DNA of 53,764 nucleotides, taken from NCBI GenBank assembly GCA_026391295.1, contig JAPLDS010000054.1:1-53764 (forward strand). Reading direction: 5' to 3'. The first letter of the stretch is position 1; each line of letters begins with the position of its first letter. Shown here piece after piece: positions 6,520 to 48,603 of the stretch. This DNA comes from Bacteroidia bacterium (lineage in GTDB: Bacteria; Bacteroidota; Bacteroidia; Bacteroidales; Prolixibacteraceae). Under the pieces are notes generated by a model. It had not been told where the DNA came from and searched no databases. It worked only from the letters and a program-made list of their open reading frames with translations. The position numbers and the translations under genes were made by a program.

Positions 6520-6560
6520 ACTTGATGCCTGTGCGAACTATGTCCAATAAAAAACAAAAG

Positions 6561-14940: not shown

Positions 14941-16293
14941 ATGGAAAATTTATCACGTAGGTCATTTCTTACTGCTGCCTCAGCCGCTGTGGCAGGGACA
15001 GTTTTTCTTCCGAACCTCATTAGCTGTAAGCCAAGCAATAGACTAAACATTGCAGTAATTGGTGTTGGTGGTAGGGGCTCGGCTAGCTGGACACAAGTTC
15101 CAAAAGAGAGTATCGTAGCTATGTGTGATGTGGATGACAGACAATCTGTTCAAGGGTTTAAGGCATGTCCAAAAGCGAAGAGATATAAAGATTTCAGGGT
15201 GATGCTCGATGAGATGCACCGAGATATTGATGCAGTAATCATTGCAACACCTGACCACACCCATTTTGCAGCGGCAATGGCTTGCATGGAACTAGGCAAA
15301 CATGTATTTGTTGAGAAACCATTGTGCCATAACATCTGGCAATCACGAACGCTGAAAAAAGCGGCAAAACATTACGGTGTTGTTTCTCAAATGGGAAATC
15401 AAGGTCACACCACCAACGGCATCAGATTAGTCAAAGAGTGGTATGACATGGGACTACTCGGTCAAGTTAAAGAGGTGCACGCTTGGCAATCACCACTTAA
15501 TAATGTAAAAGCAGGTGCTTTTGTACCATCTACAACTTTTCCTCCGCAAGCAATGCCAGTACCAAAAGAACTGGACTGGGATTTATGGCAAGGACAGGCT
15601 AGCGAACGCCCGTTCAATAAAGTTTATGCACCAGGCGACTGGAGAGGTTTTTATTATTATGGGAATGGAAAATTAGGCGATTGGTGTTGCCATACCCTTG
15701 ACGCCCCTTTCTGGGCATTAGATCTTGGTATTCCATACTATGCGGAGGCCAAACAAATCAATCCAATACCTGATCATACATTTGTTTCTGAACAATCACT
15801 AGTAACCTGGAAGTTTGCAGCCCGGGGCGAAAAAGCTCCAGTGACCATGAAATGGTACGAAGGATTTGGCAAACCTGAGGTGAGACCTGAATGGGGAATC
15901 GACGAATTACCTGTCGAGGGGATGATCATGATTGGTGAGAAAAAAACATTGATCACCGGAATGCGTCCTAATGATGCCCGACTACTAGTTCCTAAAGAGG
16001 AGTGGGAAGAATTTAAGAAGAACCCTCCTGCAAAAACAATTCCTAGAATATTGGAAGAGAAACCGGTACAGGAATGGATTGCAGCGATTAAGTCCCACAC
16101 CTTACCTGGATCAAATTTCGACTATGCGGCAAGTTTAGTTGAGATGGCACAAGTGGGTATACTTGCACAACGTTTTGGTGGCGAGATCAATTACGATGCA
16201 AAAACCATGAAGGCTGTGGGTCGTCCAGAGCTGGATATTTACATCAAAGAACCGGCCCGCAAGGGATGGTCATATGGTGAGAACTTATGGTAG
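14941..16293 (+). CDS. Tat-exported Gfo/Idh/MocA oxidoreductase, lipoprotein type
   Basis: This 450-residue oxidoreductase begins with a twin-arginine motif (SRRSFL) and a hydrophobic stretch that ends in LISC, so a Tat-exported lipoprotein with lipidated Cys29 is likely. The Rossmann motif is AVIGVGGRGS (about 38-47). The EKP motif of the superfamily is intact (Glu125-Lys126 in VEKPLCHN), with TPDHTH before it. Such enzymes use NAD(P) to oxidise or reduce a sugar hydroxyl; exported members usually keep the cofactor bound. It is the most divergent of the seven oxidoreductases here: it lacks the shared IPSTALGMGGK stretch after the signal and has HTLD in place of HHIDIAQWG. It sits between the GH95-like and GH29-like genes. 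Confidence 0.9.
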   Translation: MENLSRRSFLTAASAAVAGTVFLPNLISCKPSNRLNIAVIGVGGRGSASWTQVPKESIVAMCDVDDRQSVQGFKACPKAKRYKDFRVMLDEMHRDIDAVIIATPDHTHFAAAMACMELGKHVFVEKPLCHNIWQSRTLKKAAKHYGVVSQMGNQGHTTNGIRLVKEWYDMGLLGQVKEVHAWQSPLNNVKAGAFVPSTTFPPQAMPVPKELDWDLWQGQASERPFNKVYAPGDWRGFYYYGNGKLGDWCCHTLDAPFWALDLGIPYYAEAKQINPIPDHTFVSEQSLVTWKFAARGEKAPVTMKWYEGFGKPEVRPEWGIDELPVEGMIMIGEKKTLITGMRPNDARLLVPKEEWEEFKKNPPAKTIPRILEEKPVQEWIAAIKSHTLPGSNFDYAASLVEMAQVGILAQRFGGEINYDAKTMKAVGRPELDIYIKEPARKGWSYGENLW

Positions 16294-16338
16294 TTCTTAA
16301 ATTTATTTCATTAAAATAGAAAAACTAAATTATTCAAT

Positions 16339-17652
16339 ATGAAGATCAAGTTCAGTATGCAGGCGAGTCTTATTCTTATGCTTCTTTGTTGGAGTATCGC
16401 AACGCAAGCAGTCACAGTCAAAGAGATTGGCTCTAAACCAGTCATTTCGATGGCGAAAGATTCCTTAACAGCAAATGCCGATTTCCTAAATATGCATTAT
16501 GGGTTCTTTGCCCACTATTCCTTTCCAGGGAAGAAATACCAATGGGGATCGACCGACTGGATCGATGGATCAGCCATTCAGAGTTTGGATGAGTTAGCCG
16601 ATAATTTTGATGCAGAAGATCTAGCACAAAAAGCAGCTGCGATGAGAGCTCAGTATGTTATTTTCACAACCTCACATGCGAATATGAATGTGCTGTTTCC
16701 AAGTAAGGTTATGGATAAATGGATCCCTGGACACACTTCAAAACGGGATGTTTTAACGGATATGATTAAAGCCGTTAAAGCAAAAAATATCCGGGTGATG
16801 TTTTATGTTCATCCTAGTGACGGTCATGATTTCACCAAAGAAGATCAAGAGCGCGTAGGCTACAATGATGGACCTCCCTATGCAAAATACAACGATTTTA
16901 TCAATGCCTATTATGCCGAGCTCGTTGATCGATATGGCAAGGAGGTATCGGGTTATTTTCTAGATGGTGGAGTACCTAAGAGAATTCTCGATTTACCACG
17001 TTTACGTAAGACATTCTTAAGTCGCCAACCTGGTGCCATTCTAATCCAAAATGGAGGTCTGAATAAGAGTGTGAATGATTATGGCGCATTCGAAACCTTA
17101 GACCCTCCATATCCAGCAGCGCGATGGGTAGTCTGCAAGCCAATAACAGGTGAATGGTGGGCGATGAAAAATTCGGTTATCATTTGTCCAGAGCTAGCTT
17201 ACCGCTATACCGTTCTGCAAGCATCTGTCACGAATCGTCAAGGTGGTGGTGTGAACTGGGCTTTTGGTCCTCACCCTGGCGGCAAATGGGAAATTGGAGT
17301 AGCCTCGTTCTGCGAACGCATAGGTGTCTTAATGGATAAGTCTGGCCCCTCTATTTTAAATACGCATCCAAGTAAAGCTTATGTGACATTAGATAAACAA
17401 ATGCTCGTGGGACTCTCCTATGCAGCTACTGAATCTGTTGATGGAAAGAGAACTTATCTACATTTATTCTTGCCTCCGAAAACCAATGTGATCGATTTGC
17501 CTTTACCTGCTGATGGTCGCAAGTTTTCCACAGCTAAACTTCTTTCGAACAATCATCCAGTTGAAGTTCGTCAAACCGCTGAGGGTGTAAGTTTAACAGT
17601 TGCAAAAAGTGACCGGTGGGATGATGTTGACACCATTATAGTTTTAGAATAA
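16339..17652 (+). CDS. Divergent GH29-like (alpha-L-fucosidase-type) TIM-barrel protein
   Basis: The protein has 437 residues and a signal peptide ending near TQA. The start of the barrel (HYGFFAHYSF, about 53-62) resembles the RWGMFIHWG motif of alpha-L-fucosidases, and Asp209 in GYFLDGG sits where GH29 has its nucleophile Asp. The HHDGF motif of GH29, which contacts fucose, is replaced here by SHANMNVLF, so substrate specificity probably differs from classical fucosidases. No acid/base residue could be assigned. It lies 45 bp after an oxidoreductase and 16 bp before a DUF1080 gene. An alternative is a GH29-related family without a number. Confidence 0.6.
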   Translation: MKIKFSMQASLILMLLCWSIATQAVTVKEIGSKPVISMAKDSLTANADFLNMHYGFFAHYSFPGKKYQWGSTDWIDGSAIQSLDELADNFDAEDLAQKAAAMRAQYVIFTTSHANMNVLFPSKVMDKWIPGHTSKRDVLTDMIKAVKAKNIRVMFYVHPSDGHDFTKEDQERVGYNDGPPYAKYNDFINAYYAELVDRYGKEVSGYFLDGGVPKRILDLPRLRKTFLSRQPGAILIQNGGLNKSVNDYGAFETLDPPYPAARWVVCKPITGEWWAMKNSVIICPELAYRYTVLQASVTNRQGGGVNWAFGPHPGGKWEIGVASFCERIGVLMDKSGPSILNTHPSKAYVTLDKQMLVGLSYAATESVDGKRTYLHLFLPPKTNVIDLPLPADGRKFSTAKLLSNNHPVEVRQTAEGVSLTVAKSDRWDDVDTIIVLE

Positions 17653-17668
17653 ATCACACCATATAATC

Positions 17669-18433
17669 ATGAAACAAATAAGATTCCATCAATTGCTTAT
17701 CGCTCTAGTTGTTGCAAACATGACCTATTTAGGATCCTTGTCTGCACAGAAAAAGGAGCCGAATAACGTTGAAGATTGGTCGAAACAGCCAACAAGCATA
17801 AAGCCTGTTGTTGGAGCGACACCGCCTTCAGATGCGATCGTCTTATTTGCGAATGATAATCTCTCTCAATGGGAGAGCCTTCGTCAAAAAGGGGCTCCTG
17901 CTGCATGGAAAGTAGATGGGCCGCAATTTACCGTTGAGCCTGGCACAGGCGATATCATTACCAAGCAATCGTTTGGTGATTGTCAGTTGCATATCGAATG
18001 GAACATACCGGAAAATGAAGTACAGAATAATCTAAACTTTGGCAATTCGGGGATCTATTTTATGGGATTGTATGAAGTGCAGATCTACTCCTCCTATAAT
18101 GATGAACATAAAATATACTACAATGGTCAAGCTGGGAGTATCTACAAACAGCATGCTCCGTTGGTGAATGCCTGTTTGCCTGCTGGCACTTGGCAGACCT
18201 ACGACATTGTATTTACTGCACCGCGATTCAGATGCGATAACTCAGTGGAATCACCTGCCTCATTTACAGTTTTTCAAAATGGCGTGCTTATACAAAATCA
18301 TGTAACATTAATTGGACCTACGTCACATGGCCCACATACCGAATACAAATCGCATGAAGACGCGTTGCCACTTTTATTGCAAGAGCATGGCAGCAAAGTG
18401 AGTTATAAAAATATCTGGATTCGCAACCTGTAA
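17669..18433 (+). CDS. DUF1080 / 3-keto-disaccharide hydrolase family protein
   Basis: This 254-residue protein has a signal peptide ending at LSAQ (about residue 27). It has the DUF1080 pattern: AIVLFANDNLSQWES, then WKVDGPQFTVEPGTGDIITKQ, then NSGIYFMGLYEVQIYSS and a C-terminal YKNIWIRNL strand, which together form a concanavalin-like beta-sandwich of normal length. Members of this family cleave 3-keto-glycosides, either by hydrolysis or by elimination, after a Gfo/Idh/MocA dehydrogenase has oxidised C3 of the sugar. Its position between two such oxidoreductases (12 bp from the next one) fits that route. It is the only DUF1080 protein I recognise in the window, against seven oxidoreductases. 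Confidence 0.88.
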   Translation: MKQIRFHQLLIALVVANMTYLGSLSAQKKEPNNVEDWSKQPTSIKPVVGATPPSDAIVLFANDNLSQWESLRQKGAPAAWKVDGPQFTVEPGTGDIITKQSFGDCQLHIEWNIPENEVQNNLNFGNSGIYFMGLYEVQIYSSYNDEHKIYYNGQAGSIYKQHAPLVNACLPAGTWQTYDIVFTAPRFRCDNSVESPASFTVFQNGVLIQNHVTLIGPTSHGPHTEYKSHEDALPLLLQEHGSKVSYKNIWIRNL

Positions 18434-18445
18434 CTAAACGACACC

Positions 18446-19738
18446 ATGGATAGAAGAAGATTTCTTAGCAGCACTGGAATGATCCTCGCAGGATCATCAC
18501 TCATTACACTCCCAATTGGATGTAAAAGCAAAAAGCCTAACGACTTAATCACCATTGGAATGATTGGCGTAGGTTCTCAAGGGACAGAACGTAACCTACG
18601 GCATTACCTGAAATATCCTGAGCTCTGCCGTGTGGTTGCAGTTTGCGACGTGAGCATGACAAGAGCCACCAGTGCGAAGAACCTCACGGATAAAACGTAT
18701 AAATCGACCGATTGTAAGGTCTACCAAGATTTTAGAGCGATTCTTGATGACCCAACGATAGACGCAGTACAGATTTCGACGCCTGATCATTGGCATGTGC
18801 CAATCACCATTATGGCAGCATTAAAAGGGAAACATGTCTGCTGTGAAAAACCAACACTAACCATAGCTGAAGGTCGACTATTAAGTGAAGTTATCAAAAA
18901 AACTGGCGTCGTTTATCAGGTATCTGTTGAAGACCGGTTCCTTCCAGTCTACCATCAGTTAGCTGAAGTTGTTTTAAACGGACGTCTTGGAGCTGTTAAA
19001 CATATTGAGGTTGGATTACCCGTTTCAGACCTACCTAAAAAAGGATTAGATATCACTGCGCCTCCGGCAGACTTAGATTACGATATGTGGTTAGGACCAA
19101 CGAAGGAGATTCCATTCATCTACTCACGAACATTTTACCATTTCAGGTGGAACGATGCCTTTTCAGGAGGTGTCATTACCGACTGGGGCGCTCATCTTTG
19201 CGATACAGCGCAATTAATTTCTGGCAATGAATATTCTGGTCCCACAGAAGTTACGCCAAGTGGAGAAACTCTTTTCTACAATGATGGAATCTTTAATACA
19301 GCCTATAAATTTGACTTAAGTTACAAATACGCCAACAATGTAAGCTTACATGTTGGAGTAGGCAACGGAAATATTAAAGTGATCGGCGAGGAAGGGTGGA
19401 TTGAATCAAAAGGTTGGAATCAAAAATTAATTGGTAGCGACGAAAATATCTTCGATCTAAAGGACAAAAAAGTATCGCTGCCAACAGCGGACGATGAATT
19501 TATTGACTTTTTACGCAGCATAAAGGAGGGTCGAAAAGCGGTCTATACAGCCGAATCGGGGCATCGCACCAGTTCGATGTTGCACTGTGGGAATATTGCC
19601 TTGAAGCTAAATAGAAAGCTGGAATGGGATCCACTTAAGGAGAGCTTTGTAAATGATGCAGAGGCTGACAAAATGAAAAAAAGAGAGATGAGAGATAAGT
19701 GGAGCTACAGCAAGATTTGTCCTCAGTATACTTATTAG
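18446..19738 (+). CDS. Tat-exported Gfo/Idh/MocA oxidoreductase, lipoprotein type
   Basis: The protein has 430 residues. The N-terminus carries DRRRFL and ends in LPIGC, so Cys26 could be lipidated after Tat export. The Rossmann motif is GMIGVGSQGT (about 38-47). The EKP motif is present as CEKPTLT (Glu134-Lys135), where most of its paralogues have EKPL. TPDHWHVP and WGAHLCD provide the other conserved blocks. It is predicted to act on a sugar C3 hydroxyl with bound NAD(P); substrate unknown. It directly follows DUF1080 by 12 bp, which makes this pair the best candidate for an oxidation-then-cleavage step. The next oxidoreductase begins 26 bp later. Confidence 0.9.
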   Translation: MDRRRFLSSTGMILAGSSLITLPIGCKSKKPNDLITIGMIGVGSQGTERNLRHYLKYPELCRVVAVCDVSMTRATSAKNLTDKTYKSTDCKVYQDFRAILDDPTIDAVQISTPDHWHVPITIMAALKGKHVCCEKPTLTIAEGRLLSEVIKKTGVVYQVSVEDRFLPVYHQLAEVVLNGRLGAVKHIEVGLPVSDLPKKGLDITAPPADLDYDMWLGPTKEIPFIYSRTFYHFRWNDAFSGGVITDWGAHLCDTAQLISGNEYSGPTEVTPSGETLFYNDGIFNTAYKFDLSYKYANNVSLHVGVGNGNIKVIGEEGWIESKGWNQKLIGSDENIFDLKDKKVSLPTADDEFIDFLRSIKEGRKAVYTAESGHRTSSMLHCGNIALKLNRKLEWDPLKESFVNDAEADKMKKREMRDKWSYSKICPQYTY

Positions 19739-19764
19739 CATAAACAATTTAAAAATTAACGATC

Positions 19765-21075
19765 ATGCTTAACAAAACAAACAGAAGAGATTTTCTGAAA
19801 AGATCGGTAGCTGTGTCAGCAGGTGCTTTGATCTTGCCTCAGATTATCCCATCCACAGCACTGGGGATGGGCGGAAAGCTAGCACCAAGCGATCGAATTG
19901 TAATGGGTGCCATTGGAACTGGAGCCCGCGGAAGAGGTAACGTGCGTGAATTTTTAAAACGTGATAAAACCGTGCAAATGGTTTCTATATGCGATCTAGA
20001 CACCACACACCTGGCAAAAACAAAAGAACTTGTTGATGCTGCTTATAAAAATAACGATTGCCGCTTGTATGGCGACTACCGCGAATTTTTAGAAAAAGAG
20101 AAGTTGGATGCCGTAACAATTGCGATACCTGATCATTGGCATGGTATTGTCTATACTGCTGCAGCCAATAAAAAACTCGACATCTACGGAGAGAAGCCAC
20201 TAGCTCGAACTATTTATGATAGTCAAGCAATTGTAAATGCTGTGAAGAGAAACAATATCGTATGGCAAACAGGAAGCTGGCAACGGTCGAAAGTTACATT
20301 TCGTCATGCAGCCGAACTAGTTGTGAATGGCCGAATTGGCAAAGTCTCTCACATTGAAGTTGGATTACCCGATGGTGGTGCAGGTGTTGGAACTCCTCCA
20401 ATCATGCAAGTTCCATCAGAACTTAATTGGGAGATGTGGCTTGGGCCAGCGCCAAAAGTTGATTACCGAGGTGTATGCCATTGGAACTGGCGTTGGATCT
20501 TGGACTATTCAGGTGGACAGCTTACAGACTGGGCTGGACATCATATCGATATCGCGCAGTGGGGTATCGGGATGGAGCGCTCTGGACCAATAGAATTTGA
20601 AGGTGAAGCTATCTACCCAAGAGATGGAATATACAATACCCCTGTGGAGTATGATTTCATGTGTAAATATGCCAACGGCATTCAGATGCGTGTTGCAAAC
20701 TCATCACGTTTAAAACACGGTGGTGGCGCTACCTGGTATGGGGACAAAGGTTGGATCTCTGTTGACCGTGGTAGAATAGATGCATCAGACCCTAAGATCC
20801 TCGATGAGGTGATTGGAGAAAAAGAGATTCAGCTATATAAAAGCGATGAACACTTCGACAACTTCTTAGAGTGTATGCGCACCAGAGGTGAAACAGTAGC
20901 ACCTGCAGAAATTGCACATCGCTCAATCTCTGTTGGCCTATTGGGTGAAATCGCTATGTCAACAGGTCAGAAAATACAATGGGATCCGATCAAGCAGGAG
21001 ATCATTGGAGACCAAAAACTAAATCGTTTATTAACTCGCCCATACCGCAAACCATGGGAATTACCAACACTTTAA
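19765..21075 (+). CDS. Tat-exported Gfo/Idh/MocA oxidoreductase, module 1
   Basis: This is one of four close paralogues here (with 31924, 42433 and 47287). It has 436 residues, a Tat motif NRRDFL, a hydrophobic stretch without a lipobox and the shared block IPSTALGMGGKLAPSDRI. The Rossmann motif is GAIGTGARGRGN. Glu143-Lys144 form the EKP motif, PDHWH precedes it, and SGGQLTDWAGHHIDIAQWG supplies the putative active-site His/Asp. A soluble periplasmic enzyme with bound NAD(P) is expected. The ThuA lipoprotein gene starts 11 bp downstream, and this two-gene arrangement recurs twice more in the window. An equal candidate role is reduction of a 3-keto sugar. Confidence 0.92.
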   Translation: MLNKTNRRDFLKRSVAVSAGALILPQIIPSTALGMGGKLAPSDRIVMGAIGTGARGRGNVREFLKRDKTVQMVSICDLDTTHLAKTKELVDAAYKNNDCRLYGDYREFLEKEKLDAVTIAIPDHWHGIVYTAAANKKLDIYGEKPLARTIYDSQAIVNAVKRNNIVWQTGSWQRSKVTFRHAAELVVNGRIGKVSHIEVGLPDGGAGVGTPPIMQVPSELNWEMWLGPAPKVDYRGVCHWNWRWILDYSGGQLTDWAGHHIDIAQWGIGMERSGPIEFEGEAIYPRDGIYNTPVEYDFMCKYANGIQMRVANSSRLKHGGGATWYGDKGWISVDRGRIDASDPKILDEVIGEKEIQLYKSDEHFDNFLECMRTRGETVAPAEIAHRSISVGLLGEIAMSTGQKIQWDPIKQEIIGDQKLNRLLTRPYRKPWELPTL

Positions 21076-21086
21076 ATCTAATTAAA

Positions 21087-22298
21087 ATGAAAAAACAATA
21101 CTTAATCATACTTGCATTTGCAGGAATTCTAGCCTTAACAAGCAGCTGTCATTTTGGAGCTAAATACAAAGCTTTGATCGTTACTGGTCAGAATAATCAC
21201 AACTGGAAAGCTAGTTCTCCAATCTTAAAGCAGTTGCTTGAAGAGACTGAGCTTTTCTCAACTGACATTGCTACGTCGCCAGAAAACAAAGCCGACATGA
21301 GCAGTTTTGCCCCCAACTTTTCGAAGTATGATGTTGTCGTGCTTGATTACAATGGTGCAGCTTGGCCCGAAGCCACACAAAAAGCTTTTGAGAAATATGT
21401 CAGTAATGGTGGTGGCGTCGTAAGCTTTCATGCCGCTGATAACTCTTTCCCAGAGTGGAAAGAGTACAACAAAATGATCGGCCTAGGAGGCTGGGGAGGT
21501 CGTACCGAAAAAAGTGGACCTTACCTTTATTATGTTGGCGACAAGATGGTTCTAGACACTGCAGCTGGCAGAGGTGGCTCACACGGGAAAAACCAAGAGT
21601 TCGAAATTCGGATGCGCAACATAGAACACCCAATCGTCAATGGTCTACCTAAACGATGGATCCACGGAAGTGATGAACTTTATAACTCATTACGCGGACC
21701 AGCAGAAAACTTAGAGGTTTTAGCCACCGCATTTTCTGCAAAAAACGCAGGCGGAACAGGTCGCAATGAGCCAATACTTATGACTATTAAATATGGCAAG
21801 GGACGAATCTTTCATAGCACACTTGGACATCCATCAGCAACTGGTGGTCCGGCATTAGAATGTGCTGGTTTTATTGTAACATTTCAGCGTGGTGCCGAAT
21901 GGGCTGCTTCCGGAAATGTAACTCAGAAAGTTCCTTATGACTTTCCAAATGCTGGCAGTTCATCGCTAAGAGCAGGTTTTAAACAACTAACTCTAGAAGA
22001 TGATCTAACTAAAATTGCAACCTACGACATCACCAAAAGCACAAAATATTTCGTCGACTTACAAACAAGAATTCGTGCGGAAGGTAAAACACCGGAAGCC
22101 ATGCAAGGATTTGAGAAAAAAATGATCAGTGTACTTCAAAAAGCGGAAGCTACCCCGGAGGGAAAAAGACTCCTAATGCACGAATTAAGCTGGATGGGTT
22201 CTGATCTCTCTATTCCAGTTATTCAAGAATTAGCAAAAAACGCAGCCTTGAAAGACGAAGCAGAATTTGCTCTAGCAAGACTCAAACCGACAAAATAA
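21087..22298 (+). CDS. ThuA-like lipoprotein with C-terminal HEAT-like segment, module 1
   Basis: The 403-residue product starts at 21087, which gives a clean lipoprotein signal (lipobox LTSSC, Cys21) and an 11-bp gap to the oxidoreductase; the same frame is open further upstream, but that part lies inside the oxidoreductase gene. Residues from about 27 form a ThuA domain (glutamine-amidotransferase-like fold) with ALIVTGQNNHNWK and SFHAADNSFPEWKEY. The last about 90 residues are helical and contain ELSWMGSDLSIPVIQELA, which looks like one HEAT repeat. ThuA proteins work with Gfo/Idh-type ThuB in trehalose catabolism through 3-keto-trehalose. The exact reaction is not settled, so I only infer handling of keto-sugars. 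Confidence 0.88.
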   Translation: MKKQYLIILAFAGILALTSSCHFGAKYKALIVTGQNNHNWKASSPILKQLLEETELFSTDIATSPENKADMSSFAPNFSKYDVVVLDYNGAAWPEATQKAFEKYVSNGGGVVSFHAADNSFPEWKEYNKMIGLGGWGGRTEKSGPYLYYVGDKMVLDTAAGRGGSHGKNQEFEIRMRNIEHPIVNGLPKRWIHGSDELYNSLRGPAENLEVLATAFSAKNAGGTGRNEPILMTIKYGKGRIFHSTLGHPSATGGPALECAGFIVTFQRGAEWAASGNVTQKVPYDFPNAGSSSLRAGFKQLTLEDDLTKIATYDITKSTKYFVDLQTRIRAEGKTPEAMQGFEKKMISVLQKAEATPEGKRLLMHELSWMGSDLSIPVIQELAKNAALKDEAEFALARLKPTK

Positions 22299-22319
22299 AT
22301 AGAAGAATCAGTAAAATAA

Positions 22320-24740: not shown

Positions 24741-24762
24741 ACCAATAACTAAAAAAACGAAC

Positions 24763-26340: not shown

Positions 26341-26383
26341 TTCAAGGATTACAATACAATTCCATAGAAGCGAAAACAGGATT

Positions 26384-29776: not shown

Positions 29777-29781
29777 TTAAG

Positions 29782-31883: not shown

Positions 31884-31923
31884 AATATAACAATAAATAC
31901 TAACACACTTAAAAATCAACAAA

Positions 31924-33237: not shown

Positions 33238-33248
33238 ATTAGATACGG

Positions 33249-34454: not shown

Positions 34455-34483
34455 ATTTCTAATATCCCTTAATCTCGAATAGT

Positions 34484-35857: not shown

Positions 35858-35865
35858 ATCATCAG

Positions 35866-35906
35866 ATAGGCTTAGGTATGCTATAAAGCAACCTAAGTCT
35901 ATTTTT
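35866..35906 (+). terminator. Rho-independent terminator ending the second unit
   Basis: A 12-bp stem (35866-35877 with 35891-35902, including one G-U pair) with a further short TGC/GCA pairing in the loop is followed by TTTTT (35902-35906). It lies in the 69-bp gap after the oxidoreductase at 34484-35857, before the DUF4838 gene, and so splits the long glycosidase run into two transcription units. No clear promoter element is visible between it and 35927, so partial read-through is possible. Confidence 0.8.
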
Positions 35907-35926
35907 AATTTATTAAAAAATACAAA

Positions 35927-37837: not shown

Positions 37838-39735
37838 GAACATATAAAATAAGTCTACTTGCGATTGCTCTAGTTGTTACAACTGCAAGTTATGCATGGA
37901 AACCTGCAGGAACAAAGATTATGACTAAATGGGGTGAGGCGCTTACTCCAGAAAATGTTTTGCCAGAATATCCAAGACCTCAGCTTGCGCGCACTGCATG
38001 GCTAAATCTTAATGGACTATGGGAATATGCGGTTATCCCGAAAAAAGATCCTACTCCAATAACCTACCAAGGTGAGATACTTGTCCCATTTGCGGTTGAA
38101 TCGGCTCTATCTGGAGTTGGAAAGAAGGTTACTGCCGCAGACCGAATCTGGTATAAACGAAAAGTCACTATTCCTAAAGAGTGGGCTGGACAAAAAATTG
38201 TATTGAACTTCGGTGCTGTTGACTATGAAATGGAATTACGGGTCAATCAGGCAGTTGTTGGTTCACACAAAGGGGGATTTGATCATATCACTTTCGACAT
38301 TACGGAATACCTCAAGGACGGGGAGAATGAAATCGTTGTCTCTGTGTTGGATCCAACCAACTGGGAAGATAATCCAGTAGGAAAACAACGTGTTGTCTGG
38401 GGCGGAATCTGGTATATGCCTGTTTCAGGTATCTGGCAGACGGTATGGCTAGAGCCTGTTAGCCCAACCCTTTCGATTGAAGAGCTTCGTATGACGCCCG
38501 ATATCGACAAAGAGGAGTTAGCTCTTCAAGTGTTTACGGATAATGTCTTATATGGTTACGACTATGGTGTTAGGCTGACAGTTTCGGCAAAAGGAAAAGT
38601 TATCTTCTCGACCATCGAAAAAGCCAATAATAATCTAACGCTTAAAATCCCAAACCCACATCTTTGGTCTCCTGAGGATCCATTTCTTTATGATCTAAAA
38701 GCGGAGATTCTTAAGTTAGAATGGCCGGTGAAAGATCCGAAAAGCAAAACCAAAGAACAAGATGAAGCGAAGGTAGAACCAAAAATCATTGGTGAGCCAC
38801 TCGATGTGGTCTCTAGTTATTTTGGCATGCGCAAGATCTCGTTGGGAGCATGGAAAAACAACCAGCCAGTGATGTACCTTAACAATAAACAATATTTCCA
38901 AAATGGAGTTCTTGATCAAGGATGGTGGCCTGATGGGCTTTACACTCCTCCCTCTGAAGAGGCTGTACTTTTCGAGATGAACTTCCTTAAAGAGTCAGGG
39001 TTTAACATGTTGCGTAAACATGTGAAAGTTGAATCAGATCGCTATTACTATATGGCTGATAAGCTAGGATTGTTGATTTGGCAAGACATGCCTTCAGCGG
39101 CTAGCTGCTCTAAAGGAATGCGATGTGGACAGTTTACTGGTCCAGGAGCAAAGACAGATCTAATTAAAAAATCTGCTGCCGCTGGTCAGTTTGAGCATGA
39201 ATATCGCAACATCATTAGCATGCTTTATAGTCATCCAAGTGTAGTTAGCTGGGTTGTTTTTAATGAAGGCTGGGGTCAGTATAACACGGGTCGACTAACC
39301 GATTTTGTGCGTGGTCTTGACAAGAGCCGTTTGATTAATTCGGTTAGCGGATGGACGTTACTTGACTATGGTGATGTATATGACATTCACTCGTACAACG
39401 AAGTACCTGAGGCTCCAAAGGCAATGACAAACCGTGCAATTGTAGTGGGTGAATATGGTGGCATTGGCTATTACACGCAAGACCATACCTGGAACGAGAA
39501 TAAAAATGGCTGGGGATATCAGTCGTACGATGATCCTAAGAAGTTAGAGGACGCCTATAAAGTGAAGTTTAACGAGATCATCAGACAACAGAAAGAGATT
39601 GGTTTAAGTGGAGCCGTTTACACCCAAACATCAGATGTACATGGTGAAGTAAATGGCCTCTTGACCTATGATCGTAAAGTGGTGAAGATTCCAGCGAAGA
39701 GACTAAAGTTAATTCATGAACCACTCGTTAAATAA
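37834..39735 (+). CDS. GH2 glycoside hydrolase, third copy
   Basis: The product from 37834 has 633 residues, signal peptide to about residue 23 (ASYA), and starts in an ATGA overlap with the DUF4838 gene, which fixes the start; the frame is open a little further upstream. The N-terminal sugar-binding domain (VPFAVESALSGVG, WYKRKVTIP), the Ig-like domain and the TIM barrel are complete. Glu478 in VVFNEGWGQ is the acid/base and Glu540 in VVGEYGG the nucleophile. It is more distant from the two GH2 genes at 6561 and 8286 than those are from each other. It has a Lys/Glu-rich insert (PKSKTKEQDEAKVEPK) in the Ig-like domain. Exo-beta-galactosidase or glucuronidase activity is likely. Confidence 0.92.
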   Translation: MRTYKISLLAIALVVTTASYAWKPAGTKIMTKWGEALTPENVLPEYPRPQLARTAWLNLNGLWEYAVIPKKDPTPITYQGEILVPFAVESALSGVGKKVTAADRIWYKRKVTIPKEWAGQKIVLNFGAVDYEMELRVNQAVVGSHKGGFDHITFDITEYLKDGENEIVVSVLDPTNWEDNPVGKQRVVWGGIWYMPVSGIWQTVWLEPVSPTLSIEELRMTPDIDKEELALQVFTDNVLYGYDYGVRLTVSAKGKVIFSTIEKANNNLTLKIPNPHLWSPEDPFLYDLKAEILKLEWPVKDPKSKTKEQDEAKVEPKIIGEPLDVVSSYFGMRKISLGAWKNNQPVMYLNNKQYFQNGVLDQGWWPDGLYTPPSEEAVLFEMNFLKESGFNMLRKHVKVESDRYYYMADKLGLLIWQDMPSAASCSKGMRCGQFTGPGAKTDLIKKSAAAGQFEHEYRNIISMLYSHPSVVSWVVFNEGWGQYNTGRLTDFVRGLDKSRLINSVSGWTLLDYGDVYDIHSYNEVPEAPKAMTNRAIVVGEYGGIGYYTQDHTWNENKNGWGYQSYDDPKKLEDAYKVKFNEIIRQQKEIGLSGAVYTQTSDVHGEVNGLLTYDRKVVKIPAKRLKLIHEPLVK

Positions 39736-39777
39736 ATTTAAACGAGCCATATCTTAACTAAATTCAACTATCTCACA

Positions 39778-42414: not shown

Positions 42415-42432
42415 TATTTTAATTATATACCA

Positions 42433-43749
42433 ATGAGTGCTAAAACATCGAACAGAAGAGACTTTTTAAAGCAATCGGCCATGGTTGCTTCAGGAACGCT
42501 AATCCTTCCTCAGCTCATCCCCTCAACAGCCTTAGGCATGGGGGGCAAATTGGCGCCAAGCGACCGCATTGTGATGGGAGCAATTGGCGTTGGAGGACAA
42601 GGATCGGGGAACCTAAGAAATTTCCTCTGGTCGAAAGAGATTCAGGTTGTCGCTGTTTGCGATGTTGATACCAACCATAATTTAAATGCAAAAGCGATGG
42701 TGGACAAGATTATGAAGTCCGATGATTGTCGCATGTATGAGGATTATCGGGAGTTTCTTGAGAAAGAAAAATTAGATGCAGTATCTATAGCACTTCCAGA
42801 CCACTGGCATGGACTGATCTATTCAGCTGCCGCGAATAAAAAGATTGATATCTACGGCGAAAAGCCACTTTCTAGAACGATCAGAGAAGGTCAAGCTATT
42901 GTGAATGCCGTAAAACGAAATAATGTAGTTTGGCAGACTGGTAGCTGGCAGCGCTCGGGCAAGATGTACCGACGAGCGGCGGAACTAGCCATTAATGGAC
43001 GAGTAGGAAAAATCACGCGGGTAGAAGTTGGATTACCAGATGGCGATTCACGCATCGGAACACCGCCAGTGATGGATGTTCCTCAAGGATTAAATTGGGA
43101 TCTCTGGCTCGGTCCAGCGCCCAAAGTCCCTTATCGTGGGGTATGCCATGCTGATTGGCGCTGGAACCTCGACTATTCAGGTGGTCGTCTGACCGATTGG
43201 GCTGGTCATCATGTGGATATTGCTGCCTGGGGCACTGGGCTTGATCGTACTGGTCCGGTATCGATTGAAGGACACGGAGTCTATCCGAACGAAGGATATT
43301 ACAATACACCCGTAGAGTTTGATTTTACCTGCAAGTATGCAAATGGCTTAGAGATGCGCGTGGCCAATGGTTCTCGGCTGCGTTTTAACACAGGTGCTGC
43401 CTGGTATGGTGAAAAAGGATGGATTCACGTAGACCGTGATGGAGGACTACTACATGCTTCAGACCCTAAAATTTTGGAAGAGGTGATTGGCGAGAATGAG
43501 ATTCATCTCTATAAAAGTGATAATCACTTCTGGAATTTCCTTGAATGTGTTCGATCACGTAAAGAAACTGTCTGCCCTGTTGAAGTGGCACACCGCTCAA
43601 TATCTATTGGTCTCCTGGGTGAGATAGCGATGACAACAGGTCAGAAAATTCATTGGGATCCAATTAAAGAGGAGATCATCGACAATCCTATGGCTAGCAG
43701 ACTTTTAAGCCGTACGTATCGTGCACCTTGGACTCAACCAATACTTTAA
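42433..43749 (+). CDS. Tat-exported Gfo/Idh/MocA oxidoreductase, module 3
   Basis: The protein has 438 residues, Tat motif NRRDFL and the shared IPSTALGMGGKLAPSDRI. The Rossmann motif is GAIGVGGQGSGN, EKP residues are Glu143-Lys144 (GEKPLSRTI), and the active-site block is GGRLTDWAGHHVDIAAWG, with Arg in place of Gln and Ala in place of Gln compared with modules 1 and 2. These changes near the substrate pocket may alter which sugar is bound. ThuA begins 12 bp downstream. It is predicted to be soluble in the periplasm and to act together with the ThuA lipoprotein. Confidence 0.92.
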   Translation: MSAKTSNRRDFLKQSAMVASGTLILPQLIPSTALGMGGKLAPSDRIVMGAIGVGGQGSGNLRNFLWSKEIQVVAVCDVDTNHNLNAKAMVDKIMKSDDCRMYEDYREFLEKEKLDAVSIALPDHWHGLIYSAAANKKIDIYGEKPLSRTIREGQAIVNAVKRNNVVWQTGSWQRSGKMYRRAAELAINGRVGKITRVEVGLPDGDSRIGTPPVMDVPQGLNWDLWLGPAPKVPYRGVCHADWRWNLDYSGGRLTDWAGHHVDIAAWGTGLDRTGPVSIEGHGVYPNEGYYNTPVEFDFTCKYANGLEMRVANGSRLRFNTGAAWYGEKGWIHVDRDGGLLHASDPKILEEVIGENEIHLYKSDNHFWNFLECVRSRKETVCPVEVAHRSISIGLLGEIAMTTGQKIHWDPIKEEIIDNPMASRLLSRTYRAPWTQPIL

Positions 43750-43761
43750 TATTTGAACAGA

Positions 43762-44991
43762 ATGAAAAAAATCTCGATTCATATCCTAGGCTTAGTAGCA
43801 ACAATAATGCTTTTGACGAGCTGTCATTGGGGCGGTAATTATAAAGCACTTATCGTTACCGGTCAAAATAATCATATGTGGGAAACTAGCTCCCCAATTT
43901 TAAAACAACTGCTCGAACAAACGGGGCTCTTTAAAGCTGACATTGTTAAGTCACCGGCTAAAGGTGGAGACATGAGCACTTTTAATCCTGAATTTTCGAA
44001 ATACGAAGTCGTTGTGTTAGACTACAACGGTGATTCCTGGTCTGAAAAAACGAAGGCGGCATTTGTTAAATATGTCAAAGATGGCGGTGGAGTTGTGGTC
44101 TATCATGCTGCAAATAATGCCTTTCCCGAATGGAAAGAGTACAATGAGATCATTGGTGTAGGAGGCTGGGGAAACCGATCTGAAAAAGATGGGCCTTACT
44201 TCTACTATTCAGTAGCCAACAATAAACGGAATGAAAAACTTGTCCAAGACACGACTAAAGGTCGCGGCGGATCACATGGCAAACAACACGAATTTAAAAT
44301 CAAAAATAGAGTCTTAGATCATCCCATTACCAAAGGGTTGCCTGTGGCCTGGTTTCATGGTAAAGATGAGTTATATAGCGAACTTCGTGGGCCAGGTAAA
44401 AACATGACCATCTTGGCGACGGCCTATGCCGACACGCTGATGAAAGGGACAGGCCGCAACGAGCCAATTTTGATGACGATCACCTACGGGAAAGGACGTA
44501 TTTTCCAAACTGTACTAGGCAATGCAGATGAGAATGGTGGACCATCGATGCAGTGCGTCGGTTTCATTACCACCTTTCAACGTGGCGCCGAATGGGCTGC
44601 TAGCGGAGAAGTGACGCAAGAGATCCCAGCCGACTTTCCAACTGCCGTTACAGTATCATTACGCCCTAACTTTAGCGTGATGACCATCGAAGATGACCTT
44701 GCTAAGATTGCCCAGTATGATCTGACTAAAAGCACAAAATACTTTGTTAATTTGCAACACCATATGCGCAAAGAGGCCAAGACTGCTAGCGGATTTAAGA
44801 AATTTGAAAAGATGATGCTCGTGGTATTGGAAGACAAAGCTGCGACAGTGGAAGGGAAAAAATTACTCTTAGGAGAGCTTAGCTGGATGGGGTCATCTGA
44901 AAGCATTCCAGTGATTCAAAAACTTACAGAGAATTCAGAATTAAAAGCAGCGGCTGAAGCTGCACTTGAACGCATAAATACAGCAAAATAA
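43762..44991 (+). CDS. ThuA-like lipoprotein with C-terminal HEAT-like segment, module 3
   Basis: From the ATG at 43762 the product has 409 residues, a lipoprotein signal with lipobox LLTSC and Cys21, the same position as in the other two ThuA proteins. An upstream TTG at 43753 is in frame but not needed. The ThuA domain has ALIVTGQNNHMWE, VVVLDYNGDSW and YHAANNAFPEWKEY (Asn where the others have Asp). The C-terminal helical tail with ELSWMGSSESIPVIQKL is kept. It ends 5 bp before the CBM9-like gene. Together with 42433 it is the third copy of the oxidoreductase-ThuA pair. Confidence 0.88.
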   Translation: MKKISIHILGLVATIMLLTSCHWGGNYKALIVTGQNNHMWETSSPILKQLLEQTGLFKADIVKSPAKGGDMSTFNPEFSKYEVVVLDYNGDSWSEKTKAAFVKYVKDGGGVVVYHAANNAFPEWKEYNEIIGVGGWGNRSEKDGPYFYYSVANNKRNEKLVQDTTKGRGGSHGKQHEFKIKNRVLDHPITKGLPVAWFHGKDELYSELRGPGKNMTILATAYADTLMKGTGRNEPILMTITYGKGRIFQTVLGNADENGGPSMQCVGFITTFQRGAEWAASGEVTQEIPADFPTAVTVSLRPNFSVMTIEDDLAKIAQYDLTKSTKYFVNLQHHMRKEAKTASGFKKFEKMMLVVLEDKAATVEGKKLLLGELSWMGSSESIPVIQKLTENSELKAAAEAALERINTAK

Positions 44992-44996
44992 ATAAA

Positions 44997-46079
44997 ATGA
45001 GCTTCAAAAAAACTAAAACATCCATTGGATTAATCGTTCTAGCTATTGGCATCTTATCGTCCAATTTAGCAACGGCTCAGGCAAAATGGGATTACCTTCC
45101 TCCGCGTGGCTATGTAGCCCATAAAGTTGAACAACCCATAACCATCGATGGGAAAGCTGAAAAAGCATGGGATAATGCCCCGTGGAGCAACTATTTTAAC
45201 GATATCGAGGGGAGTAAAAAACCCAAGCCACGTTTCAAAACTCGAATGAAGATGCTTTGGGATGCGAAATATCTATATGTCTATGCTGAACTTGAAGAGC
45301 CTCATGTATGGAGTTATCAGACCAAACGCGACTGCAAAATATTTATCGAGAACGACTTCGAGATGTTTATCAAACCTTCAACCATGGCTCCTACCTATGG
45401 CGAATTCGAGATGAATGCCAGAGGCACAGTGTGGGATCTATATTTTCACCGCCCCTATCGTTCAGGAGCAAACTATATGGAAAGCTGGGATATGCGCGAT
45501 GTAGTTGTTGGAGTCGATGTTCAAGGAACGATCAACAATCCTGCAGATACCGATAAAGGATGGAGCGTTGAAGTTGCTTTCCCTTGGAGTGCACTAAGAG
45601 ACTTAGGACGGAAAAGCCCATGTAATGATGGTGATATCTGGCGAGTTAATTTCTCCCGAGTAGAATGGGAACAGGCAGTATCTGCGGATGGGAAATATAT
45701 TCACAAGGTAGGGCCACATCAAGAAAGTTTAAAAGAAGACAATTGGACGTGGTCGCCTCAACGCGTAGTTCAGATGCACGAACCTGAATGCTGGGGATAT
45801 CTGCAATTGTCGAGTGAGTTAAATGGCAACGTTGAATTTAAGCGTCCTTCGGAAGAAACCATACTACAAACGCTTATTTACTTGCTTCGTTCTAAACGAG
45901 AAAACATGGAAGCAAAAACCATCAAAGCACTTATTGGCGACGATAAAATTCAAGTTAAGGGTGTTAACTTTAAAGCAGAAATGCAAGAATCACTCTTTGG
46001 CTTCTATATCATTATCACAAATGTGGATAATGGAGAACGCTATGCCATCGATGAACGAGAAGTGATCAAAAAATTGTAA
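44997..46079 (+). CDS. CBM9-like carbohydrate-binding protein
   Basis: The 360-residue protein has a signal peptide (to about residue 28, TAQ). The central domain (about 35-260) is a CBM9-like beta-sandwich: ITIDGKAEKAWDNAPW, then KMLWDAKYLYVYAELEEPHVW, NDFEMFIKP and WSVEVAFPWSALRDLG. This pattern is common in Bacteroidota PUL proteins of this length. The C-terminal 80 residues are helical and mixed. CBM9 domains bind sugar ends, so the protein may present substrate to the periplasmic enzymes; no catalytic residues are apparent. It starts 5 bp after the ThuA stop codon, so it belongs to the same transcript as module 3. Confidence 0.85.
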   Translation: MSFKKTKTSIGLIVLAIGILSSNLATAQAKWDYLPPRGYVAHKVEQPITIDGKAEKAWDNAPWSNYFNDIEGSKKPKPRFKTRMKMLWDAKYLYVYAELEEPHVWSYQTKRDCKIFIENDFEMFIKPSTMAPTYGEFEMNARGTVWDLYFHRPYRSGANYMESWDMRDVVVGVDVQGTINNPADTDKGWSVEVAFPWSALRDLGRKSPCNDGDIWRVNFSRVEWEQAVSADGKYIHKVGPHQESLKEDNWTWSPQRVVQMHEPECWGYLQLSSELNGNVEFKRPSEETILQTLIYLLRSKRENMEAKTIKALIGDDKIQVKGVNFKAEMQESLFGFYIIITNVDNGERYAIDEREVIKKL

Positions 46080-46119
46080 TCAAAAGACAAATAAAGAAAT
46101 AGCAGAATAAAAATAAATC

Positions 46120-47229
46120 ATGAAAATAGCAGCAATTATTCTTATCACCTTATTTTCCCTTAATCTTACAGGGGCCAATAAACCGAAGGCGCCTAAGCGT
46201 GCGTATTCAAGTCATAAATTTTATTTTGCAGCTTGGGGTGCGGCAGGCAGTGGTTCCGACGAGACACAACTAGCTCGAATGAAAGTTCTGGCAGCTGCTG
46301 GAGTTACAGATCTTCTTCCTGGTGGAGATGCCAAACGGTTAGCTCAACTTATAAAATTAGCAGATCAGTGTGGGATACGGATTCATGCATGGCATTGGAT
46401 GATGAATGTTGGAGGGTCTAAAGAGTGCAGGGAACATCCCGACTGGTATTCGGTTAATCGTTTAGGACAAAGTTGCAGAGATTTTCATCCTTATGTCGAC
46501 TACTACAATTTCTTAAGTCCATTCTCGCCTGGAGCACGTGAATACATCAAAAATGGGGTTCGCGAAATAGCTAAAGTAAAAGGATTAGCTTCAGTACATT
46601 TCGATTATATCCGTTATGTCGATGTGCTTCTGGGAGCAGAACTACAAACACATTACAAACATAATGGAGGTCCACTAGTACAGGATCGTCTGATGGCCGA
46701 ATACGACTTCGACTACCACCCATTAGCACGAAAAGCTTTTAAAGAACAGTTTGGAACTGATCCGATGGAATTGCCTGACAAAGAAGAGAATGCCGCTTGG
46801 AAACAGTTTCGGATGAACGCCATAACCTCACTCGTTGAAGAGTGTGTTCAGATTTGTCATGAAGAAGGTACACGAGCCTCAGCTGCTGTATTTCCATTCC
46901 CACAATTAGCGAGAGAATATGTGAAGCAAGACTGGGCCCACTGGAGCCTCGACACTTTCTTCCCTATGGTCTATAAAAAAGATCACCAAGGAAATCTAAA
47001 CTGGGTGGGCTTTGCCACACAAGAAGGTGTGCGCGAGATGAAAAAGGGGCAAGACCTTTTCACTGGTCTTTCTGTAGATAATTATGGAGATAACATGGAA
47101 GAATTTGAAGAGGCTATTAAGCAAGCCCATGACCATGGTGCAAGAGGTGTTGCATTCTATCATGCCAATGCACTCAAAGAGCAGCACCTTGCTGTAATTA
47201 AAAAGTTGAATGATCTATACAACAAATAG
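46120..47229 (+). CDS. GHL10-type TIM-barrel protein, putative glycosidase
   Basis: The 369-residue protein has a short signal peptide (to about residue 18). The TIM barrel shows the motif VHFDYIRYVD, with Asp162, which is typical of the glycosyl-hydrolase-like GHL10 group, along with IHAWHWMMN and DTFFPMVYKK. Members of this group are regarded as glycosidases but few have a proven substrate. It stands 40 bp after the CBM9-like gene and 57 bp before the last oxidoreductase. Length fits a single barrel without extra modules. I cannot name the linkage cut. Confidence 0.75.
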   Translation: MKIAAIILITLFSLNLTGANKPKAPKRAYSSHKFYFAAWGAAGSGSDETQLARMKVLAAAGVTDLLPGGDAKRLAQLIKLADQCGIRIHAWHWMMNVGGSKECREHPDWYSVNRLGQSCRDFHPYVDYYNFLSPFSPGAREYIKNGVREIAKVKGLASVHFDYIRYVDVLLGAELQTHYKHNGGPLVQDRLMAEYDFDYHPLARKAFKEQFGTDPMELPDKEENAAWKQFRMNAITSLVEECVQICHEEGTRASAAVFPFPQLAREYVKQDWAHWSLDTFFPMVYKKDHQGNLNWVGFATQEGVREMKKGQDLFTGLSVDNYGDNMEEFEEAIKQAHDHGARGVAFYHANALKEQHLAVIKKLNDLYNK

Positions 47230-47286
47230 TTCATTCAACGGAATGTAAATTTTCAACCTAATATTTAGATCGAACAAGACAATAAT

Positions 47287-48603
47287 ATGAATACTAAAAC
47301 AAACAGAAGAGATTTCTTGCGCCAATCGGCTGTATTAACGGCAACAACCGTTATTTTACCCACCCTAATCCCTTCGACGGCGTTAGGAATGGGTGGAAAG
47401 CTAGCTCCAAGTGATCGTATTCTCATGGGAGCCATTGGTACTGGTGGTCAGGGGACCAATAACCTTAGAGATTTTCTAGGTCATAGTAAAGAAATACAGT
47501 TTGTAGCTGTTTGTGATGTCGACAGCACCCATACAGCAAAGGCAAAAGGAATTATTGACCTTGCAAATAACAATACCGATTGTCGCACCTATGCTGACTA
47601 TCGCGAGTTTCTCGAGAAAGAAAAAATTGATGCAGTATCGATTGCCCTACCCGATCATTGGCATGGACTGATCTATACTGCAGCAGCGAATAAAAAATTA
47701 GATATCTATTGCGAAAAACCGCTTGCACGGACTATTCACGATAGTCAAGCCATTGTAAGTGCCGTAAAACGAAACAATATTGTTTGGCAGACGGGAAGCT
47801 GGCAGCGTTCAGTTGAACGTTTCCGTCGTGCAGCCGAGCTAGCGATCAACGGACGAGTTGGAAAAGTAACTCGTGTTGAAGTCGGCCTTCCAGATGGTAT
47901 TAAAGGTATCGGGACACCTCCTGTAATCGATGTTCCTGCTGGACTCGACTGGGAAACCTGGTTAGGACCTGCGCCTAAATCACCTTACAGAGGTGTTTGT
48001 CATGGCGACTGGCGCTGGATGCTTGACTATTCAGGCGGTCAACTTACCGATTGGGCAGGTCATCATATCGATATTGCGCAATGGGGACTTGGCATGGAAC
48101 GATCAGGACCAGTAGAGATTGTTGGAAAAGGTACTTATCCATTAGACGGTCTTTACAACGTTCCATTTGCGTATGATTTCAACTGTAGATATGCCAATGG
48201 CGTTGAGATGCGAGTCGCTAATGCATCTGCACTACCTCATCGGATGGGTGTTGTATGGTATGGTGATAAAGGATGGGTTTATGTTGATCGCAACAGAGAA
48301 CAAATCTTCGCTTCTGATCCAAAAATTCTTGAAGAGGTAATCGGAGAGAATGAGATCCATCTGTATAAAAGTGACAATCACATTGGCAACTTCCTCGAAT
48401 GCATCCGATCACGTGCCGAGACGGTAGCTCCAGCTGAGATTGCTCACCGATCAATATCGGTTGGTCTATTGGGAGAAATTGCCATGACAACGGAGCAAAC
48501 GATCAAATGGGATCCAAAAAATGAAGTAATCATTGACAATCCTGCTGCAAGTCGATTGCTTTCACGACCATATCGCAAACCATGGGTCGAACTAACACGA
48601 TAA
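47287..48603 (+). CDS. Tat-exported Gfo/Idh/MocA oxidoreductase, orphan copy
   Basis: The seventh oxidoreductase has 438 residues, Tat motif NRRDFL and the shared IPSTALGMGGKLAPSDRI. Rossmann motif GAIGTGGQGTNN, EKP residues Glu143-Lys144 (CEKPLARTI) and GGQLTDWAGHHIDIAQWG are all present. Despite being clearly in the same clade as modules 1-3, it has no ThuA gene next to it; the next gene is the transglutaminase-esterase fusion 59 bp away. It may have lost its partner or share one of the three ThuA proteins. Confidence 0.92.
   Translation: MNTKTNRRDFLRQSAVLTATTVILPTLIPSTALGMGGKLAPSDRILMGAIGTGGQGTNNLRDFLGHSKEIQFVAVCDVDSTHTAKAKGIIDLANNNTDCRTYADYREFLEKEKIDAVSIALPDHWHGLIYTAAANKKLDIYCEKPLARTIHDSQAIVSAVKRNNIVWQTGSWQRSVERFRRAAELAINGRVGKVTRVEVGLPDGIKGIGTPPVIDVPAGLDWETWLGPAPKSPYRGVCHGDWRWMLDYSGGQLTDWAGHHIDIAQWGLGMERSGPVEIVGKGTYPLDGLYNVPFAYDFNCRYANGVEMRVANASALPHRMGVVWYGDKGWVYVDRNREQIFASDPKILEEVIGENEIHLYKSDNHIGNFLECIRSRAETVAPAEIAHRSISVGLLGEIAMTTEQTIKWDPKNEVIIDNPAASRLLSRPYRKPWVELTR

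Follow-up and report, generated by a model that had tools for sequence, protein, structure and literature searches.

Why should a single polysaccharide utilisation locus encode seven oxidoreductases of the Gfo/Idh/MocA type, each with a twin-arginine (Tat) export motif, together with three ThuA lipoproteins and a DUF1080 protein? This is the situation in contig JAPLDS010000054.1 of the draft genome GCA_026391295.1 (2.93 Mb in 81 contigs), from a member of the Prolixibacteraceae. The stretch analysed, here called the window, covers positions 1 to 53,764 of this 62,854-base contig. An earlier note on this DNA had described these genes and linked them to the 3-keto-glycoside route, in which C3 of a sugar is oxidised before the glycosidic bond is broken. 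On the gene counts given below, the repeated unit of the locus is a conserved gene pair, for an oxidoreductase subfamily that we call Gfo-b and for a long form of ThuA, which is amplified in this locus and mostly single in relatives. We think it somewhat probable that the locus houses an amplified, exported form of the 3-keto-glycoside route.

The inventory given in the earlier note was confirmed. All seven Gfo genes pass the Pfam cut-off for PF01408 and all three ThuA genes that for PF06283, the single DUF1080 gene passes that for PF06439 (Table), and the lipobox cysteine is at residue 21 in each of the three ThuA proteins and at residue 29 in Gfo14941 (genes are named by family and start position). 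Every gene named in the locus is on the + strand, in the order SusC, SusD, a small lipoprotein and then carbohydrate-active enzyme (CAZyme)-like genes with the Gfo, ThuA and DUF1080 genes, and there is thus a SusC/SusD pair with co-directional CAZyme-type genes, as expected of one polysaccharide utilisation locus. Seven is a lower bound for the Gfo genes, as an eighth Tat-type gene, Gfo57057, sits on the same contig outside the window. The genome has 38 PF01408, 5 PF06283 and 17 PF06439 matches, and 7 of the 38 PF01408 matches lie within 33.7 kb; for a single stretch this has a Poisson P of about 4e-7, uncorrected for the choice of the densest one. PF01408 and PF06439 matches are also widespread in the genome beyond the window.

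The seven Gfo proteins are not equivalent copies. Identity to Gfo47287 is 71-75% for Gfo19765, Gfo31924, Gfo42433, the eighth protein and a further copy on contig C25 of the same genome, and falls to 46% for Gfo34484, 33% for Gfo18446 and 27% for Gfo14941. By these comparisons the seven are of several lineages. Four of them, and the eighth protein as well, belong to one subfamily of old paralogues, Gfo-b; mean column identity among six Gfo-b proteins is 82%. The copy number noted earlier is indeed unusual, as will be seen, but for Gfo-b and long ThuA and not for the seven as one set.

Long ThuA proteins have about 100 additional residues. In named genomes at least 567 stretches encode ThuA. 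The best 80 of these gave 81 ThuA frames, of which we set aside 10, 4 long and 6 short, that are truncated at the end of a contig. A strong Gfo gene is directly upstream of all 28 assessable long ThuA genes in this sample, whereas only 3 of the 43 short ones have such a gene on one side or the other. Frames of 944-1299 residues, still directly after Gfo, contain the long ThuA in seven of the loci (L048, L049, L052, L055, L058, L061 and L063), whose bins carry the labels Planctomycetota, Hydrogenedentota, Aminicenantes and Clostridiales. All five ThuA genes of the genome studied here adjoin a PF01408 match, including the three in the window; the latter are not the only ThuA genes of the genome, as two more are on C25.

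Within the family, 28 of 140 genomes have long ThuA, and in 24 of these it is present once (the copy in G104 has an internal stop). The exceptions are the present genome with four, G118 (nzgw133) with four, G124 with two and G015 with one and a fragment. All 24 single long ThuA genes, a set that overlaps with the named loci, adjoin a Gfo-b gene at a distance of 14-422 bases (coordinates compared by eye). At G015:C7:40634-41998 (L128) an unrelated frame, which from its sequence looks like an ECF (extracytoplasmic function) sigma factor, joins the ThuA43762 sequence in frame from residue 200, and DNA similarity to the window ends at the junction; this is either a deletion or a misassembly.

Gfo-b was found in 54 of the 140 family genomes (E 1e-150, at most 12 candidates being scored per genome) and is single in 50, the others being the present genome (G000) with six, G118 and G124 with five each, and G015 with three. 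All four genomes with multiple Gfo-b genes carry parts of the window cluster. However, presence of part of the cluster does not always go with amplification, as G121, G122 and G128 each have one Gfo-b and, on short contigs, a 64-69% identical form of the transglutaminase gene of the cluster, G121 having the GH106 gene also. At E 1e-80 this transglutaminase-core gene (48663-51125) has matches in 9 of the 140 family genomes, and 7 of the 9 belong to the 18 same-genus genomes listed. The earlier statement that a locus normally has one or two such oxidoreductases was set against a full count for Gfo-b only; the wider PF19051 count, over 17 genomes, covers about half of 304 matches, and among those the next densest group, by eye, is 4 in 34 kb at G008:C24.

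The Gfo-b copies are old, as the paralogues are saturated at synonymous sites (proportion of synonymous differences, pS, about 0.7). Two are kept at 96-98% identity in the sister genomes G124 and G015, and the ratios of nonsynonymous to synonymous substitution against these two genomes are 0.035 and 0.045 for Gfo47287 and 0.055 and 0.039 for Gfo57057, so that both copies tested are under purifying selection. Residues K144, P145, D255, H259 and D262 are invariant in all nine aligned Gfo proteins, and Gfo47287 has the same letters as PDB entry 8tdf at the EKP lysine and D...H positions, which we take to be active-site residues of Gfo-fold enzymes. We then looked at the 245 columns in which 15 or all of 16 single-copy Gfo-b proteins agree, at which Gfo31924 has 14 changes, Gfo19765 17, Gfo57057 23, and Gfo42433 and Gfo47287 24 each. 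When each single-copy protein was left out in turn (186-207 columns) 13 of the 16 had 0-4 changes and the other three had 7, 12 and 21; the contig copies are thus clearly more changed than most single-copy proteins, though not than every one. The changed positions include 238 and 240, which flank His239 in the stretch ahead of the Asp255-His259 motif, and would fit altered specificity without proving it. Taken with the age of the paralogues and the selection on two of them, this is indirect support for the earlier idea of copies tuned to different sugars, and we think it probable that each paralogue has its own sugar or linkage.

The Gfo proteins are predicted to be exported. A twin-arginine motif (RRx[FLVMI], the fifth position being hydrophobic) occurs in the first 40 residues of all eight Gfo proteins of the contig and in none of its 28 other protein entries, two of which are halves of one broken gene. 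With a rate of 0.0098 in shuffled N-termini, chance occurrence is ruled out by this contrast. The curated Tat model TIGR01409 (cut-off 16.7) is passed by five of the seven window proteins, Gfo14941 scoring 19.6; the eighth is below the cut-off at 14.7. TatC is encoded in the genome.

With regard to the reaction, the link to 3-keto-glycosides made in the earlier note is upheld in part. All eight Gfo proteins match the NCBIfam model BT_2158_fam (NF058561, glycoside 3-dehydrogenase) at E 1.6e-35 or better, Gfo14941 with 338 bits over residues 5-424 and the others with 122-160 bits. The AlphaFold2 model of Gfo31924 (mean predicted local distance difference test score, pLDDT, 87.4) has as its best fold matches 8tdh (trehalose-bound; template modelling scores 0.76/0.73) and 8tdf, both of the glucoside-3-dehydrogenase AL3 of Alistipes, and the glucuronide-3-dehydrogenase 8tdi is among its top 10. 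Gfo14941 also matches 8tdf in sequence (E 1.6e-64), and the DUF1080 gene stands two genes after it, so that these two resemble the BT2158/BT2157 pair of a glycoside 3-dehydrogenase and a 3-keto-glycoside-cleaving protein. DUF1080 would thus go with this separate Gfo and not with the Gfo-b copies. BT2157 is given as a 3-ketotrehalose hydrolase in PMC9007349, and PMC10628242 treats oxidation-elimination chemistry on glycosides as established.

The scheme that we favour would run as follows. Tat would carry the folded Gfo proteins, with NAD(P) bound, into the periplasm, where Gfo-b would oxidise C3 of a sugar unit and the neighbouring ThuA lipoprotein would cleave the activated glycosidic bond of the 3-keto-glycoside. 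The reduced cofactor could then re-reduce the freed 3-keto sugar, in which case the outcome would be net hydrolysis and free NAD(P) would not be needed. Gfo14941 and DUF1080 would form a second pair, similar to BT2158/BT2157, and the oxidation-cleavage paralogues would act beside the GH106, GH78, GH2, GH29, GH92 and GH43 glycoside hydrolase (GH) enzymes. Export, C3 oxidation, ThuA as the cleaving enzyme, the closed redox cycle and the substrate are what we infer from the families involved; the presence of rhamnose in the target glycan is guessed from the GH106 and GH78 genes nearby.

In the relatives inspected the single-copy pair is part of a cassette. This begins with a gene for a NapC/NirT tetrahaem cytochrome that is fused with an FGE-sulfatase-like domain, and continues with Gfo-a, Gfo-b and ThuA, and in six loci Gfo-c is next. 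The present genome has such a cassette at C25:99109-104591 (L011:1110-6592), in the order cytochrome, Gfo-a, Gfo-b, long ThuA. At C6:43356 onward (L118) it has a cytochrome gene followed by two Gfo genes and no ThuA. Of the 28 named long-ThuA loci, 11 have the cytochrome gene, in one case only a partial one, and several of the remaining loci end before that point. The gene is also present in 8 of 9 regions from family relatives, of which the ninth ends at a contig edge and two are on the same contigs as named loci. It is lineage-limited, as only 3 of 198 genomes drawn across the phylum gave a match at E 1e-60, full-length only in the present genome. No such cytochrome gene lies anywhere on the contig that holds the window, and the window also has no Gfo-a. 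Gfo34484, which follows ThuA33249 as Gfo-c follows ThuA in the six related loci, forms a clade (support 100/97) with the Gfo-c proteins of L114, L116, L031, L033, L034 and L029. Exported Gfo enzymes might use this cytochrome as an electron partner.

However, several observations weigh against the proposed route. The pair is not obligatory, as Gfo47287 and Gfo57057 have no adjoining ThuA and 16 genomes of genus g18 have Gfo-b without a long ThuA. TIGR01409 misses two of the seven window Gfo proteins, Gfo42433 at 14.8 and Gfo18446 with no match reported. None of the seven reaches the equivalog cut-off of NF058561, which is 750 bits, the best being Gfo14941, while another protein of the genome (C50:2647-4101) is above it at 861 bits; for six of the seven the match is over only about the first 270-300 residues, and they also match, more weakly, models for inositol and other dehydrogenases. 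The AlphaFold2 model of ThuA33249 (pLDDT 90.4) has 4e5v as its best fold match, but the closest solved ThuA structures are named only "putative ThuA-like", and ThuA as an enzyme is our inference; its C-terminal helical stretch (about residues 300-401) is outside the coverage of 4e5v. Finally, the NapC-type cytochrome of the single-copy cassette would be easier to reconcile with an open electron route than with a closed cycle.

The absence of ThuA beside some Gfo-b genes would suit an alternative in which Gfo-b proteins are complete NAD-dependent glycosidases like those of GH109, a single site taking the sugar through oxidation, elimination, addition of water and reduction, with ThuA being accessory, binding or regulatory. 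PMC10628242 describes oxidation-linked elimination glycosidases of GH109, so there is precedent for this. However, of three Gfo proteins searched, the GH109 chain 6t2b is matched at E up to 0.001 by Gfo14941 only (E 8.8e-6, residues 19-168, the Rossmann half; one search covered 60 of 66 matches) and is absent for Gfo47287, no GH109 entry appears in the top 50 fold matches of Gfo31924, and GH109 membership is thus unsupported. That long ThuA is so consistently paired with Gfo-b also favours a joint reaction, and we regard the one-site alternative as decidedly unlikely. The cassette raises another alternative, that the cytochrome-FGE protein encoded elsewhere in the genome relays electrons from the exported Gfo proteins to the membrane chain, sugars being oxidised for energy and not for cleavage alone. 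The gene order on C25 and the frequency of the cytochrome in named loci and relatives argue for it, and its absence from this contig and narrow distribution against. Transfer of hydride from NAD(P)H to haem also requires a one-electron step, and no obvious gene here supplies that, so we find this improbable.

It could also be argued that the copies are dosage duplicates of one specificity, kept for more enzyme. The 82% mean column identity among six Gfo-b proteins and the invariant active-site residues are as this would predict, but the synonymous saturation shows the copies to be old and they differ at 14-24 of the 245 conserved columns, including the two beside His239; we therefore think it unlikely. 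More speculative, and in our view rather unlikely as a whole, is an extension in which Gfo-b and long ThuA make up a two-protein machine dedicated to oxidative bond cleavage, the C-terminal helices of ThuA docking Gfo-b. It would have begun as a single respiration-linked cassette with a NapC-type cytochrome, and been captured and multiplied in a polysaccharide locus, each copy for another sugar, with oxidation-cleavage proceeding beside hydrolysis.

The history of the locus can be followed in part. Recent tandem duplication in this strain alone is ruled out by the saturated synonymous sites and by close relatives of several copies in Prolixibacteraceae nzgw133, and a tree in which the five Gfo-b proteins of the contig are held as one clade has a p value in the approximately unbiased test (p-AU) of 0.022, which also counts against it. 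In nzgw133 a related cluster (L028), 66-84% identical by best hits, has the order ThuA, DUF4838, GH2, Gfo, ThuA, CBM9, GHL10, Gfo, transglutaminase, GH106. The L028 Gfo that occupies the place of Gfo42433 groups with Gfo31924 (support 96/92), and forcing it to group with Gfo42433 gave a p-AU of 0.00016; for the L028 ThuA proteins the positional groupings gave 0.078 and 0.0145. The Gfo/ThuA pairs flanking DUF4838-GH2 thus look exchanged in L028. On these values, and as the groups for the constrained trees were named only after the tree had been seen, we regard support for the exchange as good in the case of Gfo and as weaker in that of ThuA.

Table. Genes of the locus and the evidence for their assignment
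Gene or product	Position	Strand	Evidence and remarks
SusC-like TonB-dependent receptor, STN domain	55..3537	+	PF13715, PF07715, PF07660
SusD-like lipoprotein	3573..5495	+	PF07980, PF14322; lipobox
Gfo14941, Tat-type Gfo with lipobox	14941..16293	+	PF01408 73 bits; among the seven, nearest to BT2158 glycoside 3-dehydrogenase
GH29-like protein, between Gfo14941 and DUF1080	16339..17652	+	PF01120 E 8e-19
DUF1080, 3-keto-disaccharide hydrolase-like	17669..18433	+	PF06439 "3keto-disac_hyd" 129.9 bits (cut-off 26.8); PDB 4qhz E 4e-57
Gfo18446, divergent Tat-type Gfo	18446..19738	+	PF01408, PF19051; RRRFL
Gfo-b copy 1 (Gfo19765)	19765..21075	+	PF01408, PF19051; TIGR01409 18.2
Long ThuA lipoprotein (ThuA21087), paired with Gfo-b copy 1	21087..22298	+	PF06283 101.9 bits; lipobox TSSC
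GH106 alpha-L-rhamnosidase-like protein	26384..29776	+	PF17132 518 bits; open reading frame as listed begins 26291 TTG
Gfo-b copy 2 (Gfo31924)	31924..33237	+	PF01408; TIGR01409 19.9; AlphaFold2 model
Long ThuA lipoprotein (ThuA33249), paired with Gfo-b copy 2	33249..34454	+	PF06283 100.7 bits; AlphaFold2 model
Gfo34484 (Gfo-c)	34484..35857	+	PF01408; TIGR01409 17.0; Gfo-c clade
DUF4838/GH67N-like protein	35927..37837	+	PF16126; 74% identical counterpart in L028
GH2-family protein	37834..39735	+	Pfam; 75% identical counterpart in L028
Gfo-b copy 3 (Gfo42433)	42433..43749	+	PF01408; RRDFL; TIGR01409 under cut-off
Long ThuA lipoprotein (ThuA43762), paired with Gfo-b copy 3	43762..44991	+	PF06283 89.3 bits; lipobox LTSC
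CBM9-like protein	44997..46079	+	PF06452; 69% identical counterpart in L028
GHL10-like protein	46120..47229	+	PF02638; 78% identical counterpart in L028
Gfo-b copy 4 (Gfo47287), no adjoining ThuA	47287..48603	+	PF01408; TIGR01409 19.4
Transglutaminase-core protein	48663..51125	+	PF01841; 71% identical counterpart in L028
GH106-like protein	51149..53764	+	PF17132; continues beyond window to contig position 54730
Eighth Tat-type Gfo (Gfo57057), fifth Gfo-b of contig	contig 57057-58367, past window		no adjoining ThuA

Past the window the contig has the remainder of the GH106 gene, then GH92, Gfo57057, GH29 and GH78 genes. A GH2 gene at 6510-8245 is split into two overlapping frames, the first matching residues 8-421 and the second residues 462-598 of the next GH2 protein, which is due to decay or to an assembly error.

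If the proposed route is correct, polysaccharide loci may rely on whole sets of oxidation-cleavage enzymes that are missed by ordinary annotation of glycosidases, with specificity built through expansion of paralogues. The Gfo-b/ThuA pair is a small unit that could be expressed for probing the role of ThuA and the cycling of NAD(P) enzymes in the periplasm, and the cytochrome cassette opens the electron question to testing. We found nothing on amplified Gfo/ThuA genes in a polysaccharide utilisation locus, or on the cytochrome cassette, in titles and abstracts, a search whose coverage leaves out most subscription journals and which probably missed the slashed form Gfo/Idh/MocA.

Among known systems, the glucose-fructose oxidoreductase of Zymomonas is Tat-exported with NADP tightly bound, and shares the Gfo fold, and the 50 best fold matches of Gfo31924 include its precursor form 1h6d. 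However, 1h6d is ranked below the glucoside-3-dehydrogenases, and its chemistry is different. The 3-keto-glycoside operon of Bacteroides thetaiotaomicron, which we take to extend from BT2156 to BT2160, and whose pathway is reportedly the subject of a 2024 Nature paper, is similar in that Gfo14941 matches BT_2158_fam over residues 5-424 with DUF1080 two genes on. It differs in that Gfo14941 is below the equivalog cut-off, with the protein above it elsewhere (C50), and in that the window has three ThuA and six more Gfo genes in a SusC/SusD locus. The rhizobial ThuA and ThuB, which Ampomah 2013 ties in its title to 3-keto derivatives of trehalose and maltitol (citations in PMC10433430 and PMC4765114), also have adjoining genes, and the window has three such pairs of oxidoreductase and ThuA. 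In contrast to thuAB, the window Gfo has a Tat signal, the window ThuA has a lipoprotein signal and a helical stretch at its C-terminus, and there is SusC/SusD in place of an ABC transporter (thuEFGK), no ABC transporter family being found in a Pfam scan of 32 + strand window frames (two without any match). A further related system is the single-copy cassette of Prolixibacteraceae and relatives, with Gfo-b 66-80% identical to Gfo31924 (L030-L034, L037-L041) and long ThuA 56-65% identical to ThuA33249 (the same loci minus L032 and L035), from which the window differs in having neither cytochrome nor Gfo-a, and in having four Gfo-b and three ThuA genes interleaved with those for glycoside hydrolases.

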